NCBI RefSeq assembly: GCF_000236685.1
Contig: NC_016633.1
Coordinates: 1,116,001 to 1,180,000, forward strand
Direction: 5' to 3'
DNA: 64,000 nt
Source of the DNA: Sphaerochaeta pleomorpha str. Grapes
GTDB lineage: Bacteria > Spirochaetota > Spirochaetia > Sphaerochaetales > Sphaerochaetaceae
Below, one piece after another: positions 17,183 through 28,861 of the stretch. How positions within the stretch are numbered: the stretch's first letter is position 1; each line of letters begins with the position of its first letter. The notes beneath the pieces were generated by a model. That model saw only the letters and a list, made by a program, of their open reading frames with translations. It did no database searches and was not told the DNA's origin. Both the position numbers and the translations under genes were made by a program.

Positions 17183-17452
17183 ATGAACATCCCACAAATT
17201 GGACTGATAATCAAAAAACTCAGAATTGAACTGCATATGACCCAGCAGGAATTGATAGAAAAAGCGTATTTAACCAGAAGCCAGATTTACTATATTGAAA
17301 CCTGTAAAAAAATACCCCGAAAGCCAACCTTGGATAACATCTGCCTGGCTCTCGGGATAAGTTATTGCGAACTGATCAACTATCAATACTCGTTCGATTC
17401 TTCGACACCAAGCATATCTTCAATGGAAGCCCCCGGGGCTACCATAGGGTAA
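17183..17452 (+). CDS. Small XRE-family helix-turn-helix regulator
   Basis: An 89-residue protein. Residues 5-65 form a Cro/C1-type HTH: IGLIIKKLRIELHMTQQELIEKAYLTRSQIYYIE followed by PTLDNICLALGISYCELI. It is therefore a DNA-binding protein with almost no extra domain. Its last 70 bp lie antisense over the 3' end of ilvB. There is no clear ribosome-binding site. The dyad-rich upstream region suggests autoregulation. AT content is higher than in neighbours, which may point to acquisition by transfer. Confidence 0.72.
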   Translation: MNIPQIGLIIKKLRIELHMTQQELIEKAYLTRSQIYYIETCKKIPRKPTLDNICLALGISYCELINYQYSFDSSTPSISSMEAPGATIG

Positions 17453-19065
17453 ACCTTGTCGTCAAGAGGTATCTCACAATCGATAACAACAGGCTCATGC
17501 AAATCGAACGCAGCCTGGAGGATTGCCAAAGGGTCATCCTCCTTATGTATATGCATACCATGGACCCCAAAGGCCTTGGCAAGCATAACCCAGTCTACAG
17601 GTGTATCGAGAGTGGTTTCGCTATAGCGTTTATCAAAGAACAACGTCTGCCACTGGCGTACCATCCCAAGGGTCTGGTTGTTCATCAGCAAGATGATTAC
17701 CGGCAATTTATACCTGGCAATGGTTGCCAGCTCATTGCAGTTCATCCTGAAACAACCGTCCCCGGCAACGTTCACGACCCTGCTGCCAGGATTACCGCAT
17801 TGCGCCCCGATGGCAGCCCCTGTTCCATAGCCCATGGTCCCCAGTCCACCACTGGTCATAAAATGACCAGGCAATTCATGCTTGAGAAACTGAGCCGCCC
17901 ACATCTGGTTCTGCCCTACCTCGGTTGCAACAAACGACCCCGGGGGCATAACCTTCTGTAACGCGCCAAGGATTTCCTTGGGCCGTATGCTCTCGCCCTC
18001 TACCCTTATGGGATAGCGCTTCTTATAAGACTGGACCTGCTCCATCCATTTGCCATGTTCAAGCGTCTTTTCGATGCGCTTGTTGAGCTCAGTGAGAACA
18101 ACCTTAACATCGCCCACGACATGACAGAACGTCTTTATATTCTTGTCTATCTCTGCCGGGTCGACATCTATCTGTACAATCTTAGCATTACGGGCAAAGG
18201 CGCTGGCCTTGCTTACCACACGGTCGCTGAACCGTGCCCCGATAACAATAAGCAGGTCGCAGGCAGAAACACACATATTGGACACTTTCGTCCCATGCAT
18301 ACCAACCATACCGGTAAACCGTTCGCTGTAGGAGCTTACGGCGCCGCAACCCATCAAGGAAACACAGGCAGGGGCATCGATCAAAGAAAGGAACTTTTCA
18401 AGTTCATCCGAAGCCTTCCCCCTGATTACCCCGCCACCTACATAACACATAGGCCTTGCAGCATGCTGTATCAGATCGAGGGCCTGTTCGAGGCTTTTCT
18501 CGCTGAGCCGTTCCGTCCTAGGCAGGATCTCTTTGGGGACGGAAGGTTCATAGTCACACTGGTGCTGGGTAATATCCTTGGGAAGGTCGACAAGCACAGG
18601 ACCTGGCCTTCCTTCCTGGGCAATCCTGAAGGCAGAGCGGATTGTCTCGGCAAGCTCACAAACATCCTTCACAATGAAATTATGCTTGGTTACCGGCATG
18701 GTAATACCGGAGATATCGACTTCCTGGAAACTATCCCGTCCCAGCAAAGGTACCGGAACATTTCCGGTAAGAGCAACCAGGGGAACACTGTCCATATAGG
18801 CAGTGGCAATACCGGTTACCAGATTGGTCGCCCCCGGTCCGCTCGTGGCAATACAGACGCCGACTTTCCCCGTTGAACGGGCATACCCGTCGGCAGCGTG
18901 GCTGGCCCCTTGTTCATGGGCGGTCAGGATATGGGTTATCCTGTCTTTGTTCTTGTACAACGCATCATAGAGGGGCAATACCGAACCACCGGGATATCCG
19001 AATACGGTATCGACGCCCTGTTCCACCAAACATTCAATAATTATCTGGGCACCGGTTATCTGCAT
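17383..19065 (-). CDS. ilvB: Acetolactate synthase, large (catalytic) subunit
   Basis: A 560-residue thiamine-diphosphate enzyme that joins two pyruvates to 2-acetolactate (valine, leucine) or pyruvate and 2-oxobutyrate to acetohydroxybutyrate (isoleucine). Seen: GYPGGSVLPLYDAL, the catalytic-Glu helix ILTAHEQGASHAADGYAR, TSGPGATNLVTG, and the ThDP-binding GDGCFRMNCNELATIARYKLPVIILLMNN. The length fits biosynthetic enzymes. It is the last gene of the operon, 27 bp after ilvD. Its small subunit is the first gene, nine genes away. Confidence 0.95.
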   Translation of the reverse strand: MQITGAQIIIECLVEQGVDTVFGYPGGSVLPLYDALYKNKDRITHILTAHEQGASHAADGYARSTGKVGVCIATSGPGATNLVTGIATAYMDSVPLVALTGNVPVPLLGRDSFQEVDISGITMPVTKHNFIVKDVCELAETIRSAFRIAQEGRPGPVLVDLPKDITQHQCDYEPSVPKEILPRTERLSEKSLEQALDLIQHAARPMCYVGGGVIRGKASDELEKFLSLIDAPACVSLMGCGAVSSYSERFTGMVGMHGTKVSNMCVSACDLLIVIGARFSDRVVSKASAFARNAKIVQIDVDPAEIDKNIKTFCHVVGDVKVVLTELNKRIEKTLEHGKWMEQVQSYKKRYPIRVEGESIRPKEILGALQKVMPPGSFVATEVGQNQMWAAQFLKHELPGHFMTSGGLGTMGYGTGAAIGAQCGNPGSRVVNVAGDGCFRMNCNELATIARYKLPVIILLMNNQTLGMVRQWQTLFFDKRYSETTLDTPVDWVMLAKAFGVHGMHIHKEDDPLAILQAAFDLHEPVVIDCEIPLDDKVYPMVAPGASIEDMLGVEESNEY

Positions 19066-19092: not shown

Positions 19093-20778
19093 TCAATCCT
19101 TGAATACTGCACCGCTTGCGGCACTGGTAACCTGCTTGGCATAACGGGCCAAGTACCCCGTCGTAATCGGTGAAGGTTTGCACTTCCACCGCTCTTTTCG
19201 TTCAGCCAGAGTTGCCTCGTCGACCAACAATTCGAGTTTTCCCTTGGTGATGTCTATGCTGATACTATCTCCTTCCTCAATCAGTGCGATAGGCCCGCCT
19301 TCAGCAGCTTCAGGGCTTACATGCCCTATGGAAGCTCCCCGCGTAGCCCCACTGAACCGTCCATCGGTAATGAGCGCCACTTCCTTGTCCAGGCCCATAC
19401 CCGCAATGGCAGAAGTCGGGGAAAGCATCTCTCTCATCCCCGGGCCACCCTTTGGCCCTTCATAACGGATAACCACGACATCACCGCTTTTGATCTTTCC
19501 ACCGAAAATAGCCTTGATGACATCCTCTTCGCTTTCAAAGACCCTTGCAGGCCCCTGATGCACAAGCATCTTGGCATCGACGGCACTTCGTTTTACCACG
19601 GCCCCATCGGGGGCAAGGTTGCCACGGAGCACTGCAATGCCCCCGGTTACCGAATAGGGGTTGTCAATCGGCCTGACGACCTCTGGGTCATAGTTTTTGG
19701 CGCTGCCATACAGTTCCCCGATTGTCCTGCAACTAACGGTAGGGAGGTCAGGGTTTAGCAATCCCTTTTTCCCCAGCTCATGCATGACTGCCATAACGCC
19801 GCCTGCTCGGTACAAGTCCTCGATATGGTGTTTGCCTGCCGGGGCAAGGTGGCAGAGGTTGGGAACCTTTGCACTTATCTCGTTCGCCAGGAAAATATCG
19901 AGATCGACATGCGCCTCATGGGCGATTGCAGGGATGTGGAGCATGGTGTTGGTACTGCAGCCAAGGGCCATATCCACAGCCAGGGCATTCTTGAATGCCT
20001 CGAGTGTAAGGATATCCAACGGCCTGATGTTCTTTTTGAGCAATTCCATGATCATGTACCCGGCTTCCTTGGCCAGACGGTCGCGTGCACTGTACACAGC
20101 CGGGATCGTCCCGTTGCCAACCAAGCCCATCCCGATAGCCTCGGTAAGGCAGTTCATGCTGTTTGCCGTGTACATTCCGCTGCAAGACCCGCAGGTAGGA
20201 CAGGCGTTGTCCTCATAGCTGTGAAGCTGTTCATCACTCATGGTCCCGGCAGCATGGCTTCCTACAGCCTCGAAAACCGTAGAGAGGCTCATGCCACAGC
20301 TATCGCCCCCCGGTACATGGCCGGCGAGCATAGCCCCGCCGGAAACAAAAATGGAAGGGATGTTCATACGGCAGGCAGCCATCAGCATCCCCGGGACTAT
20401 CTTGTCACAGTTAGGTACGAATACCAGGGCGTCAAAAGGATGGGCGGTAGCCATTATCTCGATCGAATCGGCAATAAGCTCGCGGCTTGCCAAAGAATAT
20501 TTCATCCCGGTATGGCCCATCGCGATGCCATCGCATACCCCGATAACCGGGAAGGAAACAGGATTCCCCCCAGCTGCTCGCACACCACTCTTTACTGCAT
20601 CTACGATGCGGTTCAGATGGACATGCCCCGGGATAATCTCATTTGCCCCGTTGACGATGCCTATCATAGGCATATGTATCTCACGGTCAGTCCACCCAAG
20701 GGCCTTCATCAAAGACCTGTGTGGTGCTTTTTCGACTCCCTCGGTCATCACTGAAGATCGTTTCTTGCTATCGTCCAT
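19093..20778 (-). CDS. ilvD: Dihydroxy-acid dehydratase
   Basis: A 561-residue Fe-S enzyme that dehydrates 2,3-dihydroxy-isovalerate and 2,3-dihydroxy-3-methylvalerate to the 2-oxo acids of valine and isoleucine. Cluster-ligand regions [13 protein letters not shown] and [24 protein letters not shown] are present, as are [19 protein letters not shown] near the C-terminus and [16 protein letters not shown]. Full length. It follows leuB by 16 bp in the operon. Confidence 0.96.
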
Positions 20779-20794: not shown

Positions 20795-21853
20795 TTACAG
20801 GGCCTGGGCGATCAAGTCACCCATCTCTTTTGTACCGACCTTTTTCATCGATTCGGTATAGATGTCTGCGGTGCGGTACCCCGCATCGAGAACTTTCGAA
20901 ACAGAATCTTCGATTGCCGCTGCCTCTGATTCCATCGAAAAAGAGTAGCGGAGCATCATCGCCACCGAAAGGATGGTGGCAATGGGATTTGCGATATCCA
21001 TCCCTGCAATGTCGGGGGCACTGCCATGAATAGGCTCGTACATGCCGAAACTATCGCCACGCAGGGAAGCCGAAGGCAACATCCCGATCGAACCGGTAAT
21101 CTGCGAGGCTTCATCACTGAGGATATCGCCAAACATATTCTCGGTCACGATGACATCGAACTGCCGAGGGTTGCGCACCAGCTGCATGGCCGCATTGTCC
21201 ACGTAGAGGTGGTTGACCGCAACATCCGGGTATTCGCTTGCAAGGTGTTCCACAATCTCCCTCCACAGCTGGCTGGAATTGAGAATGTTCGCCTTGTCGA
21301 CGGAAGTCAGTCTCTTCTTGCGTTTCTGCGCGATTTCAAAGCCCTTGCGTACGATACGCTCGATTTCAGCTGTGGTATAACTCATCGTGTCATAGGCCTT
21401 GTCACCATCACGGCCGCGCTCGCCGAAGTAGATTCCGCCGGTGAGTTCACGCACTACCATAATGTCCAGGCCTTCGCCGACAATCTCATTCTTCAGGGGA
21501 CAGGCATCGGCAAGCTGTTTGTACAGGATTGCCGGACGGAGGTTGCAGAACAACCCCATCCCGCCGCGAAGGCCCAAAAGGGCTTTTTCCGGACGGAGGT
21601 CGCTCGCTACCTTGTCCCACTTCGGACCCCCGACGGCGCCAAGGAGAACACTGTCACTCTTGCTGCAGCCGGCCAGGGTTTCCTCGCTGAGGGGTTTCCC
21701 GGTCGCATCGATGGCACAGCCACCTGCAAGGTAGGTATCATAGGTAAAGGTATGGCCGAACTTTTTTCCAACCACATCGAGGACTTTGACTGCCTCAGCG
21801 ACAATGTCCGGTCCGATCCCGTCTCCGGGAACCAATGCTATATGTTTTTTCAT
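20795..21853 (-). CDS. leuB: 3-isopropylmalate dehydrogenase
   Basis: A 352-residue NAD-dependent beta-decarboxylating dehydrogenase. Seen: [91 protein letters not shown] and [13 protein letters not shown]. In this operon it probably also acts on (R)-2-methylmalate-derived erythro-3-methylmalate in the citramalate route, because no separate dehydrogenase is present. It overlaps leuD by 4 bp (ATGA). Confidence 0.96.
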
Positions 21854-22353
21854 TTTGCACCTTCCTTGGCTTGTTTGGAAATATAGCCTGCAAGGCCACC
21901 GGCAGCAATCAAATCCTGCATAAAGGGAGGAAAGGGCTCAGCCTGGAAGGTCTTGCCACTGGTCTCGTCGGTAATCTTACCGGTAGAGAAATCCACCGAC
22001 ACTACATCACCTGCCTTGATCGAATCACAGGCTTCGGGGCACTCAAGGATCGGGAGCCCGATGTTAATCGAGTTCCTGTAGAAAATGCGGGCGAACGTGC
22101 GGGCGATGACGCAGGAGATGCCGCTTTCCTTGATGGCTATCGGGGCATGCTCACGGCTGGACCCACAACCAAAGTTCTTGTCGGCTACGATGATATCCCC
22201 GCTTTTCACCTGTTTGATAAAATCGGCATCGATGTCTTCCATGCAATGGCTTGCAAGTTCCTTGTGGTTGGAGGTATTGAGATACCTCGCAGGGATGATG
22301 ACGTCGGTATCGACGTTATCCCCATATCTGAAAACGCTACCTTTAGCCTGCAT
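21850..22353 (-). CDS. leuD: 3-isopropylmalate dehydratase, small subunit
   Basis: A 167-residue protein with the short-form LeuD pattern: [33 protein letters not shown] and [18 protein letters not shown]. It forms the swivel domain that completes the LeuC active site. Its start overlaps the leuC stop (TAATG). Short LeuD/LeuC pairs of this type act on isopropylmalate and citramalate, which suits the cimA gene in the same operon. Confidence 0.95.
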
Positions 22354-23624
22354 TATCGTCCCTCCTGTACTTTTTTCGGGTCTGCAATGTACCCTTCGAT
22401 GGCACTTGCCGCGGCTACAGCCGGACTTGCAAGATATACTTCACTCTTCACATGGCCCATGCGGCCTACAAAATTCCTGTTTGTCGTGCTCACTGCCCGC
22501 TCCCCATCGGCGAGGATGCCCATATGCCCGCCGAGACAAGGTCCGCAGGTCGGGGTAGAAACAGCACAGCCACTATCAATGAAAATATCGAAAAGCCCGT
22601 CGTGCATGGCTTCTTTCCAGATTTTCTGGGTTGCCGGCAAAATGATGCACCTGACCCAAGGGGCGATTTTCTTTCCCTTGAGAATCGAGGCTGCCATCTG
22701 CAGGTCGCTGAGGTGCCCGTTGGTACAGGAACCGATGACAACCTGGTCGATTTTTACCTCACCCACATTATCGATAGTACGGGTATTGGAAGGGAGATGA
22801 GGAAAGGAGACCGTACTCTTGATGGTTGAAAGATCGATATCGATAACCCTGTCATACTCGGCATCGCTGTCTGCCTCATAGATTACCGGTTTGCGTTTGC
22901 AATGGGCCTCGAGATATGCAAGGGTGGTCGCGTCAACGGGAAAAATCCCGTTCTTGGCCCCGGCCTCAATGGCCATGTTGGCCACGGTGAAACGGTCATC
23001 CATGCTCATATTGGCAACGCCTTCGCCTACGAACTCCATGCTCTGGTACAAAGCCCCGTCGACCCCGATCATACCGATAATGTGCAAGATAAGGTCCTTG
23101 CCACAGATATACGGGGAAAACCTTCCGCTGAGGTTGAATTTAATGGCGGTGGGGACTTTGAACCAGGCCTTCCCGATTGCCATGCCACAGGCCATGTCAG
23201 TAGAACCGACACCAGTGGAGAAAGCCCCGAGGGCCCCGTACGTACAGGTATGGCTATCGGCCCCGATGACCAGATCCCCTGCACCTACCAGTCCTTTCTC
23301 GGGAAGCAAGGCATGCTCGATACCCATCTGCCCGACATCGAAATAATTGGTGATTCCCTGTTCTCCTGCAAAGGAGCGCAGACATTTGCACTGCTCGGCC
23401 GCCTTGATATCCTTGTTAGGGGCAAAGTGGTCGGGAACCAAGGCTACTTTCTCTTTGTCAAATACCTTGTCCTGCCCGAACTTTGAAAATTCGTTTATGG
23501 CTACGGGAGCAGTGATATCGTTTCCCAGCACCAAGTCAAGGTTTGCCATGATGAGCTGTCCCGGTCTGACCGAGTCCAGGTTTGCATGGTGTGCCAAGAT
23601 TTTCTGCGTCATTGTCATGCCCAT
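22353..23624 (-). CDS. leuC: 3-isopropylmalate / citramalate dehydratase, large subunit
   Basis: A 423-residue aconitase-family protein with the [4Fe-4S] ligands in [13 protein letters not shown] and [19 protein letters not shown]. Other family features are [34 protein letters not shown] and [11 protein letters not shown]. The length (about 420, not ~465) is that of the archaeal/anaerobe-type LeuC that pairs with a short LeuD. AGGAG precedes the ATG. It lies 14 bp after cimA. Confidence 0.95.
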
Positions 23625-23638
23625 ATTAGAAGGTCTCC

Positions 23639-25240
23639 TTAGTTGCTATCGTCCGAGGGTACGATTCCGTCGGCGATTAATTTGTATTCGATACTATCAC
23701 TCAAAGCCAGCCAGCTGGCCTCGATTATGTCCTTGCTTACCCCGATTGTCGACCATGTCGATTCCCCGTCTGTGGAATCAATCAGAACCCTAACCTTGGA
23801 GGCGGTCGCCCCTGCGGTATCGAGTACGCGAACCTTGTAATCAGTGAGGTGCACGCTTTTAAGTGTCGGGTAGAACTGTTCCAAAACCTTACGCAAAGCC
23901 TGGTCCAGCGCATTGACAGGACCTTCTCCCTCTGCCGCGGTTATGGCACTTTCCCCTTTGACCTTCACTTTTACCACCGCGGCGTGGGAAGCGTCGCTGA
24001 GCGGATCCAGATAGGGACTGCTCCCGATGGTCTGGTAGTGGACCAGGGTAAAGAACGGCCGGTACAGCTTCAGATGCCTGCGGATAACCAAGTCAAAGGA
24101 ACTCTCGGCTCCTTCGAACTGGTAGCCTTCGGCCTCAAGTTTCTTCAGCTCCTCCATCAAAGAAATGGTCAGGGGATTGTCTTTATCCAATTCAGGGGCC
24201 ACTTTGTGTATTCTCTTGAGCATGAGGGCCCGGCCTGCTACCTCGCTCATCAGAAGCCTTCGTTCATTACCAACAGAGGTAGGGTCGATATGCTCGAACG
24301 AAGAAGGACTCTTGCCAACCCCGTCGATGTGCATGCCGCCCTTGTGGGCAAAGGCACTTACTCCGATAAACGGCGCAGTGTGGGGAATCCTGACATTGCT
24401 TATCTCGGCAACTTTGCGTGAGATTCCTGTCAGTTGTTCCAGACTTTGCCCGTTGAGGCAATCATAGCCCATCTTGGCAGAGAGAATCCCGGCTACGGAA
24501 AACAGGCAGGCGTTGCCACAGCGCTCACCGAAACCCAGCAGGGTTCCCTGGACCTGGACGGCTCCTGCCTGGACTGCAGCTATGGAAGAGGCGACGGCAC
24601 AGCCAATGTCATCATGGGTATGGATTCCCAAGGGAATATTGGGTAACAGCTCCCCCACTTCACGAGTTATGCTGCCGACAGTCTCGCTAAGGGTGCCGCC
24701 TCGGGTATCACAAAGGACCAAGGTCGTTGCACCGCCTCGCAGTGCAGCTTTCAGCGTCTCCATGGCGTAGGAAGGATTGGCAAGGTAACCGTCGAAAAAA
24801 TGCTCGGCGTCGTAGAAAACCTCACTTCCAGAATCACAGACAAACCGGACACTGTCCTCGATCATCTGCAAATTCTCCCCCAATGAGGTCTTGATGATAT
24901 CAGTTACATGGAAATCCCAGCTCTTTCCGAAAATTGAGGTTATCTCTGTTTTGCTAGCAATCAGGGAGGCCAGGTTGGCATCCTCGCTTGCAGCTATGTT
25001 CTTCCGTCTCGTGGAACCGAACGATACCAGTTTTGCATGCTTCAGCTTCAGATCACGGGTCCGTTGGAAAAATTCAAGGTCTTTGGGGTTCGAACCTGGA
25101 TTTCCAGCCTCGATGTATTTCACCCCGAGCGTATCAAGGGCGAGTACAATCTTGACTTTATCCTCAACGGAAAAGCTGATCCCCTCCCCTTGGCTTCCGT
25201 CACGAAGCGTGGAGTCAAACAAGTCGATTATATTATTCAT
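23639..25240 (-). CDS. cimA: (R)-citramalate synthase
   Basis: A 533-residue HMGL-like/DRE-TIM enzyme that condenses pyruvate with acetyl-CoA to citramalate, the first step of the threonine-independent isoleucine route. [40 protein letters not shown] and [22 protein letters not shown] are characteristic of the CimA branch rather than LeuA. The C-terminal LeuA-type regulatory domain is present ([13 protein letters not shown]... [12 protein letters not shown]... [14 protein letters not shown]). The start at 25240 lies in the last codons of leuA (8 bp overlap); a GTG at 25264 is in frame but less likely. Confidence 0.9.
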
Positions 25241-26849
25241 GTTCGTCGCCCCTTTTCTTGTCACTATGCTCGCTGAGCATATCGTTCTCGAAAGAATGCA
25301 ATGCAGAAGCTGCTTTCACTCCGATACCGGAAGGGGGAAGGGAATCATCAAGCATCCTGTTCACGGCTGCAAGGCAGGAAAGGATGGAAGCCTCGATTAC
25401 ATCGGTACTGACTCCTCGCCCACGGTAACATCCCCGTTCGTCACTGATTTTCACCAACACTTCGCCAAGGGCGTCCCTGTGCTCGGTAACGGCCTGCAGG
25501 CTGTAGTCTTCCAAGCCGAACGGATGGCGGATGATTTTCTCGACAGCCCGCAGGGAGGCATACACAGGGCCGGTCCCGCAGGCAACTTCCTGATATTTCT
25601 TCCCCCCTTTGCGCAAGGTAACGCAAGCGGTGCTGGTCATCATGTTGCCACTGTTGACAACAAAGGAATCGAGTTCCCAGGTAATGGAAGAAGGAACATT
25701 GGTGCTTTCTACCAAGGCAATGAGATCTTTGTCAGTAATGGTCTTTTTCCGGTCGGCAAGGTTTTTGAATTCGCCGAAAAGCCGTGTGACTTCCTCGCTT
25801 GAGAGGGCGTATCCCAAATCCTCAAGCCGTTTCTCGAACGCATGCTGGCCGCTGTGTTTGCCCAGGACCAGGGAGGTGGTGAGGACCCCGACGCTCTCAG
25901 GGGTCATAATTTCATAGGTAAGGCTGTTTGCCATCATCCCATGCTGGTGGATACCGCTCTCATGGGCAAAAGCATTGGAGCCGACAATAGCCTTGGACGG
26001 CGAAATCTTAACCCCGGTTATGGAAGAAAGAAGCCTTGCAGAGCGATAGATTTCCTCTGTCTTTATGGCATTTACATAGGGGTACTCGTCATTACGGGTC
26101 CGCATTATCATGGCCAGTTCCTCAAGCGAGGCATTGCCAGAGCGTTCCCCGATGCCGCAAAGCGTGCATTCGGCCTGCCTTGCCCCGGCTTTGAGGCCGG
26201 CGAGCGTATTGGCTATGCCCAAGCCAAGGTCATTGTGGCAATGGACAGCAATGATTGCCTTGTCAATGTTGGGGACCTTGTGCATGACGGTGCTGACCAT
26301 CTTAAAGGTATCATCGGGAGTGGCGTAACCGACAGTATCGGGAAGGTTGATAACCGAAGCCCCGGCTGCAATGGCCCTTTCCACGACCCGGCACAGGTAG
26401 TCGAGATCGGTCCTAGAGGCATCCTCACAGGAGAATTCTACCTCCGGGCAAAGGTTGCGGGCATAGGCAACCATTTTCTCGGCTTTTTCCAGAGCCTGCT
26501 GACGGCTCATTTTCAATTTGTATTCCAAATGGATATCGCTGGTAGCCAGAAAGGTATGGACCCTTGGCCTCCTTGCTTCCTTTATCGATTCCCAGGCAGC
26601 ATCGATATCCTTGGGCAGCGCCCTGGCAAGGGCGGCTACCGTCACGTTTTTTACCGCGCGGCTGATAGCCTGCACACTTGCAAAGTCCCCAGGGGAAGCA
26701 ATGGAAAAGCCCGCTTCTAGGATGTCCACACCAAGGGATTCAAGTTGCATTGCCATACGAATTTTCTCGTCAAGGTTCATGCTATAGCCAGGGGCCTGCT
26801 CGCCGTCTCTCAATGTAGTGTCAAAGATGTAGATTCGTTCTTTTTCCAT
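25233..26849 (-). CDS. leuA: 2-isopropylmalate synthase
   Basis: A 538-residue protein that condenses 2-oxoisovalerate with acetyl-CoA, the first committed step to leucine. Catalytic FDTTLRDGEQAPGYSMN (metal-binding D, R), VHCHNDLGLGIANTLAGLKAGA and the flexible-domain motif FAHESGIHQHGM are present. A full C-terminal leucine-binding regulatory domain (~390-520, GTGPVYASLRAVEKII... GVSTDVIEASIL) suggests feedback inhibition. The tail ([11 protein letters not shown]) overlaps the cimA start. Confidence 0.95.
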   Translation of the reverse strand: MEKERIYIFDTTLRDGEQAPGYSMNLDEKIRMAMQLESLGVDILEAGFSIASPGDFASVQAISRAVKNVTVAALARALPKDIDAAWESIKEARRPRVHTFLATSDIHLEYKLKMSRQQALEKAEKMVAYARNLCPEVEFSCEDASRTDLDYLCRVVERAIAAGASVINLPDTVGYATPDDTFKMVSTVMHKVPNIDKAIIAVHCHNDLGLGIANTLAGLKAGARQAECTLCGIGERSGNASLEELAMIMRTRNDEYPYVNAIKTEEIYRSARLLSSITGVKISPSKAIVGSNAFAHESGIHQHGMMANSLTYEIMTPESVGVLTTSLVLGKHSGQHAFEKRLEDLGYALSSEEVTRLFGEFKNLADRKKTITDKDLIALVESTNVPSSITWELDSFVVNSGNMMTSTACVTLRKGGKKYQEVACGTGPVYASLRAVEKIIRHPFGLEDYSLQAVTEHRDALGEVLVKISDERGCYRGRGVSTDVIEASILSCLAAVNRMLDDSLPPSGIGVKAASALHSFENDMLSEHSDKKRGDEHE

Positions 26850-26885: not shown

Positions 26886-27884
<999 letters not shown>

Positions 27885-27938: not shown

Positions 27939-28469
27939 CTAGTTGTCATCCTCACTGAAACTGATGGAACTCAAAGGACGGGCCCCGCGTTCAAGGGCAG
28001 TTATACCGGTGCGGGCCATCTCCACGATACCATAGGGTTGCATGAGATCGAGAAAGGATTTGATCTTGTCAAGGCTACCTGTCATCTCCAACGTAACCGT
28101 TGTTGCAGTCACATCGATAATCTTGGCCTTGAAAATCTCGGCAAGCTCGACTACCTGGGTCCTGCTGGAATCTTTGGTATTTACCTTCACCATGACCAAT
28201 TCACGTTGCAAGGACTTGGTCTGGGTCATTTCATAGACCCGTTTCACATCCACAAGCTTGCCGACCTGCTTCTTGATCTGGTCTACGACAGCGCGGTCTC
28301 CGCTGACCACGATAGTGATGCGGCTGAATTCCTCGTTTTCCGTTTCACCGACGGAGAGACAATCAATATTGTAACCCCTGCGGCTAAACAACGAAACAAC
28401 TCTCATCAAGACGCCCGGATGGTTGTTTACCAGTATGGCTAGGGTGTAACGTTCTTCACTATTATGCAT
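27939..28469 (-). CDS. ilvN: Acetolactate synthase, small (regulatory) subunit
   Basis: A 176-residue protein with an N-terminal ACT domain (TLAILVNNHPGVLMRVVSLFSRRGYNI) and the C-terminal extension of IlvN/IlvH proteins (RELVMVKVN... VVELAEIFKAKIIDV... PYGIVEMARTG). It activates IlvB and confers valine feedback inhibition. It is the first structural gene of the operon. GAAGGAG sits 6 bp before the ATG, and this ribosome-binding site may base-pair with the leader ORF. Confidence 0.95.
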   Translation of the reverse strand: MHNSEERYTLAILVNNHPGVLMRVVSLFSRRGYNIDCLSVGETENEEFSRITIVVSGDRAVVDQIKKQVGKLVDVKRVYEMTQTKSLQRELVMVKVNTKDSSRTQVVELAEIFKAKIIDVTATTVTLEMTGSLDKIKSFLDLMQPYGIVEMARTGITALERGARPLSSISFSEDDN

Positions 28470-28566
28470 TTTTGACTCCTTCGTAGTGATATCTGGGTAT
28501 AAGCTATTGCTCCCTCAGGCGGGGAGTTCTCCACGGACCATACGGAAAATATTTCCGCTGCCGTGG
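28470..28566 (-). promoter_or_regulatory. Structured leader between the branched-chain leader ORF and ilvN
   Basis: Read on the minus strand: a hairpin CGGAAA-TAT-TTTCCG enclosed by CCACGG/CCGTGG (starting right at the leader stop codon), then CTCCC-N7-GGGAG, which competes with an alternative GGAG-AA-CTCC. There is no U-run after either hairpin, so this is not a standard intrinsic terminator. AACTCC could also pair with the GGAGT of the ilvN ribosome-binding site. The position points to attenuation-type control; the mechanism is inference. Confidence 0.6.
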
Positions 28567-28734
28567 TTATAGAATAATAATGCTTACTAGAATTAGAATA
28601 ATTACGAGGGGGAAGACGAGAAGGAGGAGGTTGGAAAGAATGGTATCGCAGGCTAGAAGGGAGAGCAAAGAAGAAAAAGATGACGTACGGGACGCATATG
28701 TCATGGCACAGGTAGTAGAACTATCCTGCATCAT
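28567..28734 (-). CDS. Branched-chain leader peptide of the ilv-leu operon (55 residues)
   Basis: An ORF of 55 codons from the ATG at 28734, which has AAGGA 5 bp upstream. The last 20 residues are LLLLVFPLVIILILVSIIIL, followed directly by TAA: 17 of 20 are Leu, Ile or Val. Four Leu codons in the last third are CTA. It sits between a TTGACA promoter and ilvN with hairpins after it, as known leader peptides of ilv/leu operons do. It is longer than classical leader peptides (about 16-32 residues), and its first 30 residues are Ser/Thr-rich. Longer frames to 28815 (TTG, GTG starts) exist but lack comparable signals. The sequence is direct observation; its attenuator role is inferred from composition and position. 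Confidence 0.8.
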   Translation of the reverse strand: MMQDSSTTCAMTYASRTSSFSSLLSLLACDTILSNLLLLVFPLVIILILVSIIIL

Positions 28735-28831
28735 CCGATTCCTTTTTGATGTCCGGTGTTTTTGGAACACCTGCCTTGCAAACGCTTTCACGATACACTC
28801 CTCAAAAACCGACAACGAATGCCGTTCTCTG

Positions 28832-28861
28832 TTTTTATCCCTCTTTCGCTAGTCGTGTCAA
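28832..28861 (-). promoter_or_regulatory. Probable promoter of the ilv-leu operon
   Basis: On the minus strand a perfect TTGACA (28861-28856) is followed after 16-18 bp by GATAAAAA (28839-28832), about 100 bp before the leader ATG. A stem GGTGTT-N5-AACACC lies just upstream of the leader ribosome-binding site. Confidence 0.6.

Follow-up and report, generated by a model that had tools for sequence, protein, structure and literature searches.

What does a short open reading frame (ORF) that ends in a dense run of leucine, isoleucine and valine codons do in front of an operon for the synthesis of these same amino acids? The case examined here lies in Sphaerochaeta pleomorpha str. Grapes, in a 64,000-nt stretch of contig NC_016633.1 that was analyzed as a whole and is called the window below; all coordinates refer to the window, and both the leader ORF and the operon are on its minus strand. 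Behind the leader, on the same strand and from 28469 down to 17383, follow nine genes in the order ilvN-ilvC-leuA-cimA-leuC-leuD-leuB-ilvD-ilvB, named by NCBIfam models scoring above their cut-offs, in agreement with the nine-gene operon described in an earlier note on this DNA. With cimA replacing threonine deaminase, the operon can, by its predicted gene content, make Leu, Ile and Val, and these end products match a leader that is rich in codons for all three. We consider it highly likely that the leader is a ribosome-mediated attenuator of this complete Leu/Ile/Val operon. The conserved and translated-looking frame, its codon content and the RNA structures are read from the sequence; from them we infer ribosome stalling, the direction of control and the readout.

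As first called, the leader ORF extends from 28734 to 28567 (55 codons) and ends in LLLLVFPLVIILILVSIIIL. Seventeen of its last 20 codons (28570-28629) specify Leu, Ile or Val, and its stop codon abuts a hairpin (28566-28531) that precedes ilvN, just as the earlier note had reported. In the six frames of the window, only one of 71,202 open 20-codon segments contains at least 17 such codons, and this is the leader end itself; the runner-up among the 1755 stop-ended 20-codon stretches reaches 11 of 20. The Leu/Ile/Val-rich end of the leader is genuine and far beyond chance. The length of 55 residues, in turn, is probably too short. The frame remains open 5′ of the ATG, and a GTG is found at 28791-28789, 57 nt upstream of it. 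The Shine-Dalgarno (SD) sequence GAGGAG (28798-28803), invariant in 13 core Sphaerochaeta leaders, and a GTG or TTG start behind it are fixed across the core set in the genus alignment, whereas the ATG of the shorter frame (28567-28734), preceded by AAGGA in the window, reads ATG, ACG, ATA or ATT in relatives. For this reason the ATG start was set aside, and the true start is probably the GTG, giving a 74-aa product (28567-28791, TAA stop, VKAFARQVFQKHRTSKRNRMMQDSSTTCAMTYASRTSSFSSLLSLLACDTILSNLLLLVFPLVIILILVSIIIL) of which the Ser/Thr-rich stretch thus forms the middle.

Several features suggest that this frame is translated and that its codons matter. Among the 13 core Sphaerochaeta leaders all insertions and deletions are in-frame, and the ratio of nonsynonymous to synonymous substitution rates (dN/dS) over the whole ORF lies between 0.19 and 0.62 in ten pairs; in close pairs some short segments scatter more, with values up to 1.9 that rest on about five differences. 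The alignment across relatives proposed in the earlier note as a check thus gave a positive answer, as the Leu/Ile/Val-rich end is kept, the indels are in-frame and synonymous changes are in excess. The final codons, GTA GTA AGC CTA ATT ATT CTC, are nearly fixed even at the nucleotide level. When the last 25 codons of the genus leaders were compared with 40 genes of the window, CTA made up 19% vs. 3% of the Leu codons and CTG 1% vs. 22%, while the shares of GTA (88% vs. 26%) and ATT (74% vs. 32%) were likewise higher in the leaders; in the window's own run of 20 codons CTG is absent. By analogy with known leaders, enrichment of a rare Leu codon would be the expected choice of a supply sensor. 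No structure is predicted within the codon run in the window and in most core leaders, and the 75 nt after the leader stop are strongly structured (z from -2.0 to -5.2). As in leader-peptide attenuators, a short ORF with a ribosome binding site, predicted to be translated, precedes the operon and carries regulatory codons for its end products, and the earlier proposal of a multivalent Leu, Ile and Val leader for nine genes is supported by the sequence.

The leader is a property of the whole family. ilvN is present in 94 of 139 Sphaerochaetaceae genomes, and in 93 of these 94 it is preceded by a Leu/Ile/Val-rich leader abutting a CCACGG...CCGUGG hairpin. Ninety-one were identified by a covariance model of the last eight leader codons and the hairpin, built from 45 family sequences, whose own matches are by construction, and two variants (L034 in G116 and L130 in G118) were recognized by eye. 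Within the family genomes the model gave one match per genome, always in an ilvN carrier, and no second leader copy before other operons. A single family genome with ilvN, G099 (L116), has no recognized upstream leader or hairpin. Strong matches were confined to Sphaerochaetaceae in a class-wide search of 297 genomes; a weak one (G327:C192:3421-3468, E 0.004) was noted in another family of the class. Leaders measure 17 to 76 codons; Sphaerochaeta and several further genera have the long forms, and the leaders of sister genera keep just 17-30 residues, with no conserved N-terminus.

Two of these sister genera, g18 and g27, have the arrangement of a classical attenuator. Region 1, formed by the last codons and the stop, pairs with the sequence after CCAC (1:2); region 2 (CCACGG) pairs with region 3 (CCCGUGG) as the antiterminator (2:3); and region 3, in the terminator (3:4), pairs with an arm farther downstream that has a U-tract behind it, so that antiterminator and terminator hairpins are mutually exclusive. 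In 51 g18 and g27 genomes the mean pairing scores were 8.9 for 1:2 and 9.6 for 3:4, compared with 5.5 for shuffled arms, and in 49 of 53 cases the hairpin is followed by at least six U in eight positions. Readout in g18 and g27 would thus run through these three alternative pairings. In g22, g32, g33, g35, and g36 the strands CCACGG, CCGUGG, and (C/T)CACGG also permit two exclusive pairings, but without a following U-tract.

The window's own clade is built differently. Hairpin A (CCACGG...CCGTGG, 28531-28566) begins at the base after the stop codon. All 17 Sphaerochaeta sequences have the same outer stem, which is nearly invariant also in the 45 family sequences, while the inner stem, longer in Sphaerochaeta, covaries there and shows double changes at all five pairs; the invariance of the outer stem in Sphaerochaeta has no competing partner to explain it. 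Hairpin B (CTCCC...GGGAG, 28510-28526) occupies the terminator position and has no U-tract in the window. In the core clade, including the window, two to five of the eight positions after it are U, compared with six to seven of eight after the corresponding hairpin in four early-branching Sphaerochaeta (L018-L021). As the ilvN tree nests the U-less core within a grade of U-tract carriers (12-row clade, support 90/83; a one-gene tree with long outgroup branches), the U-tract was probably lost in the core clade. Some 11-13 nt past hairpin B, Sphaerochaeta and some members of genus g29 share a conserved motif, TATAYCC (28501-28495), for which neither a partner nor a function was found.

In the mechanism that we propose, a ribosome translating the 74-codon ORF would slow in the final Leu/Ile/Val run whenever any one of the corresponding charged tRNAs is short, and its position would decide the RNA structure around the stop codon and, with it, the expression of ilvN and the genes behind. 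In the window's clade, where region 4 and the U-tract would have been lost, the favored readout is that the last such codons of the leader, Ile-Val-Val-Ser or, in the window, Leu-Val-Ser, pair with the stretch that immediately precedes the ilvN SD sequence (AAGGAG, 28476-28481) and takes in part of it; a ribosome stalled on these codons would keep the site open. The candidate 5′ strand, TTCTA and GTAAGC in the Leu-Val-Ser codons (28582-28592), has moderate support, and the 3′ strand, GCTTAT (28499-28504), overlaps the conserved TATACCC. Predicted folds of most core species pair leader AUC GUA GUA AGC with GCUUAU...UACGA just before the SD, the window having the variant UUCUA GUAAGC. In 17 sequences this helix has 84-90% of its cells paired and double changes at two pairs; when the whole structure was slid by 1-3 columns, in a control that includes hairpin A, pairing fell to 35-47%. 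Most core leaders pair with the region before ilvN better than their codon shuffles do; for the window's own leader 21% of the shuffles reach its value, so that it is not clearly above them. Since the GUAAGC codons are kept also in g35 and g36, where the pairing partner is missing, the pairing alone does not account for their conservation. The 5′ strand would lie under a ribosome that has stalled within the last dozen codons and would be largely free of one that has reached the stop codon. We put forward only tentatively, as a possible but doubtful course of events, that one family kept its sensor, the codon run and the CCACGG hairpin, and swapped its output from U-tract termination to control of ilvN translation; leader codons would pair at the ribosome binding site, which would be kept open by a ribosome stalled on the leader.

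A number of observations weigh against this interpretation of the locus. The window's own clade has no canonical terminator, and a search of the leader transcript found, within the criteria used, no further 6-mer able to compete with hairpin A as a partner of CCACGG or CCGUGG. With both missing, the predicted structures do not allow a classical switch to be drawn for the leader of the window, and the classical terminator that the earlier note had implied for S. pleomorpha is not supported. Hairpins A and B do not overlap and hence do not form a mutually exclusive antiterminator and terminator. In g18 and g27, scores dropped just slightly when arms were swapped among relatives of one genus, and the support for the arms is conservation, not compensatory change. 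The long-range pairing, moderately supported as it is, rests on few informative changes. Finally, the SD letters themselves are paired no more than in codon-shuffled leaders, as a GA-rich site will pair with any leader that is rich in C and U; plain SD sequestration was thus rejected as unproven.

For the readout in the window's clade, Rho-dependent termination has a rather low but real probability. Here the C/U-rich, G-poor leader would be a Rho loading site, shielded by a stalled ribosome and exposed once translation ends at the stop. The rho gene is present, the codon run lacks predicted structure and no intrinsic terminator follows it; moreover, leader peptides without terminators are on record for cys operons, with Rho suggested (PMC1262725). 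Leader G is depleted by synonymous choice (P ≤ 0.0045 in seven leaders), but g27 leaders with a good intrinsic terminator also avoid CTG and other G-ending codons, so that the depletion does not single out Rho and was rejected as proof of it; C is clearly above the codon-usage expectation in just three of the seven leaders tested. It is unlikely that hairpin B acts as a weak intrinsic terminator, perhaps one needing NusA or NusG, which would leave a classical transcription attenuator at work in the clade. The hairpin is kept in the core clade at the very place where L018-L021 have theirs with the U-tract, yet its own run of U is poor, and hairpin A, which does not overlap it, could not prevent its formation, no competing strand having been found. 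We regard as very improbable a role of hairpin A as a protein- or ligand-binding site to which leader translation would be secondary: its outer stem is invariant although the inner stem covaries and no partner competes with it in Sphaerochaeta, but elsewhere in the family the same letters serve two pairings, enough alone to restrain change, one g29 genome (L130) is changed on both outer-stem strands (GCCACA:UGUGGC), and Rfam gives no match. That the product is a small protein with a function of its own, located in the membrane or secreted, and that the ORF stands before ilvN incidentally, is hardly credible: the hydrophobic C-terminus could span a membrane and the whole-ORF dN/dS is below 1, but the short sister-genus leaders have no common N-terminus, the last seven codons are held nearly fixed as nucleotides, leader and ilvN co-occur, and the arms of a classical attenuator follow in 51 genomes.

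Upstream of the leader a putative promoter was recognized. Its -35 element, TTGACA (28856-28861), lies about 70 nt upstream of the leader start codon and is fixed at the same place in the genus alignment; the putative -10 element, TAAAAA (28832-28837), follows at a spacer of 18 and is aligned with TACAAA or TACAAC in relatives. A generic promoter scan did not list the TTGACA site because the second hexamer is poor. Around the leader start, small helices (28803-28755 and 28740-28720) are kept in core Sphaerochaeta with modest support. There, a start-codon hairpin, GUGAA..UUCAC, shows mostly G-U changes, a GGUG(C)..(G)CACC helix in the 5′ half of the ORF has double changes at two pairs, and GUAUC before the start pairs with GAUGC inside the ORF. 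The 5′ half of the leader ORF as a whole, with z from about 0 to -2.1, does not fold clearly better than shuffled sequences.

The operon begins with ilvN (27939-28469; NF008864/TIGR00119, above cut-off), encoding the small subunit of acetolactate synthase, followed by ilvC for ketol-acid reductoisomerase (26886-27878) and leuA for 2-isopropylmalate synthase (25233-26849), both assigned by NCBIfam. Next are cimA for citramalate synthase (23639-25264; TIGR00977), leuC (22353-23624; TIGR02083), leuD (21850-22353; TIGR02084), leuB (20795-21853; TIGR00169), and ilvD (19093-20778; TIGR00110). The last gene, ilvB (17383-19065; TIGR00118), encodes the large subunit of acetolactate synthase.

Taken together, the leader very probably senses the supply of branched-chain amino acids (BCAA) through ribosome stalling; it would be a regulator of a known kind, but with a readout in the window's clade that falls short of the classical test. 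The attenuator of E. coli ilvGMEDA (ilvL) and other enterobacterial leaders are multivalent, rich in Leu, Val and Ile codons and followed by alternative hairpins. The Sphaerochaeta leader resembles ilvL in being multivalent and placed ahead of a branched-chain operon; it differs in that it is longer (74 aa) and that its stop codon touches the antiterminator hairpin, while the operon also holds leuABCD and cimA, and S. pleomorpha has no recognizable terminator. Against Rfam release 15 (T-box, leader, and riboswitch models) the leader region of the window gave no match at gathering score, a permissive search returned a chance-level best match on the other strand (E 3.3), and leaders of the sister lineages gave no match either. 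Like g18 and g27, the Corynebacterium ilvB-II motif or ilvBNC leader has a BCAA-rich upstream ORF (uORF), an antiterminator and a terminator before acetolactate synthase genes (PMC10272879, PMC11857589), but no shared sequence family was found by Rfam and the window's clade lacks the U-tract. For the proposed long-range pairing, the best precedent comes from actinobacteria, where the LEU element ahead of leuA has Leu codons that pair with the SD box of this gene (PMC1262725). The element belongs to another phylum and another gene, and mutations of its Leu codons did not alter regulation as attenuation predicts, and a protein-binding role was suggested (PMC1262725). Outside enterobacteria, BCAA attenuators include Listeria Rli60, tested by mutation (PMC5864092), and a leucine-rich attenuator peptide of S. 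aureus (PMC5794164); Rli60 differs by its 13-aa peptide, its place before ilvD and its clear terminator (PMC5864092).

In the open-access literature searched, subscription papers being mostly outside its scope, no description of a leader of this kind in Sphaerochaetaceae was found. The earlier statement that none had been described in spirochaetes was nevertheless too strong, as a BCAA-rich uORF before ilvB of Leptospira (WRC-14-1) has been proposed to act by attenuation (PMC8632094, PMC10272879); the Sphaerochaeta leader is thus not the first BCAA-rich leader proposed in this phylum. Both are BCAA-rich uORFs of spirochaetes upstream of an acetolactate synthase gene; compared by description, the Leptospira motif differs in having seven representatives, in standing before ilvB, and in its peptide, which is rich in BCAA and Thr and has three or more Val codons in a row.

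With this leader, a phylum in which such leaders have hardly been described would gain an RNA regulator of branched-chain amino acid synthesis that spans a whole family and is so far unlisted. Sphaerochaeta species that are non-pathogenic and can be cultured would make the system testable. Its approximately 93 natural variants, with or without a textbook terminator, may serve to trace how an attenuator can exchange its output and yet keep its sensor.
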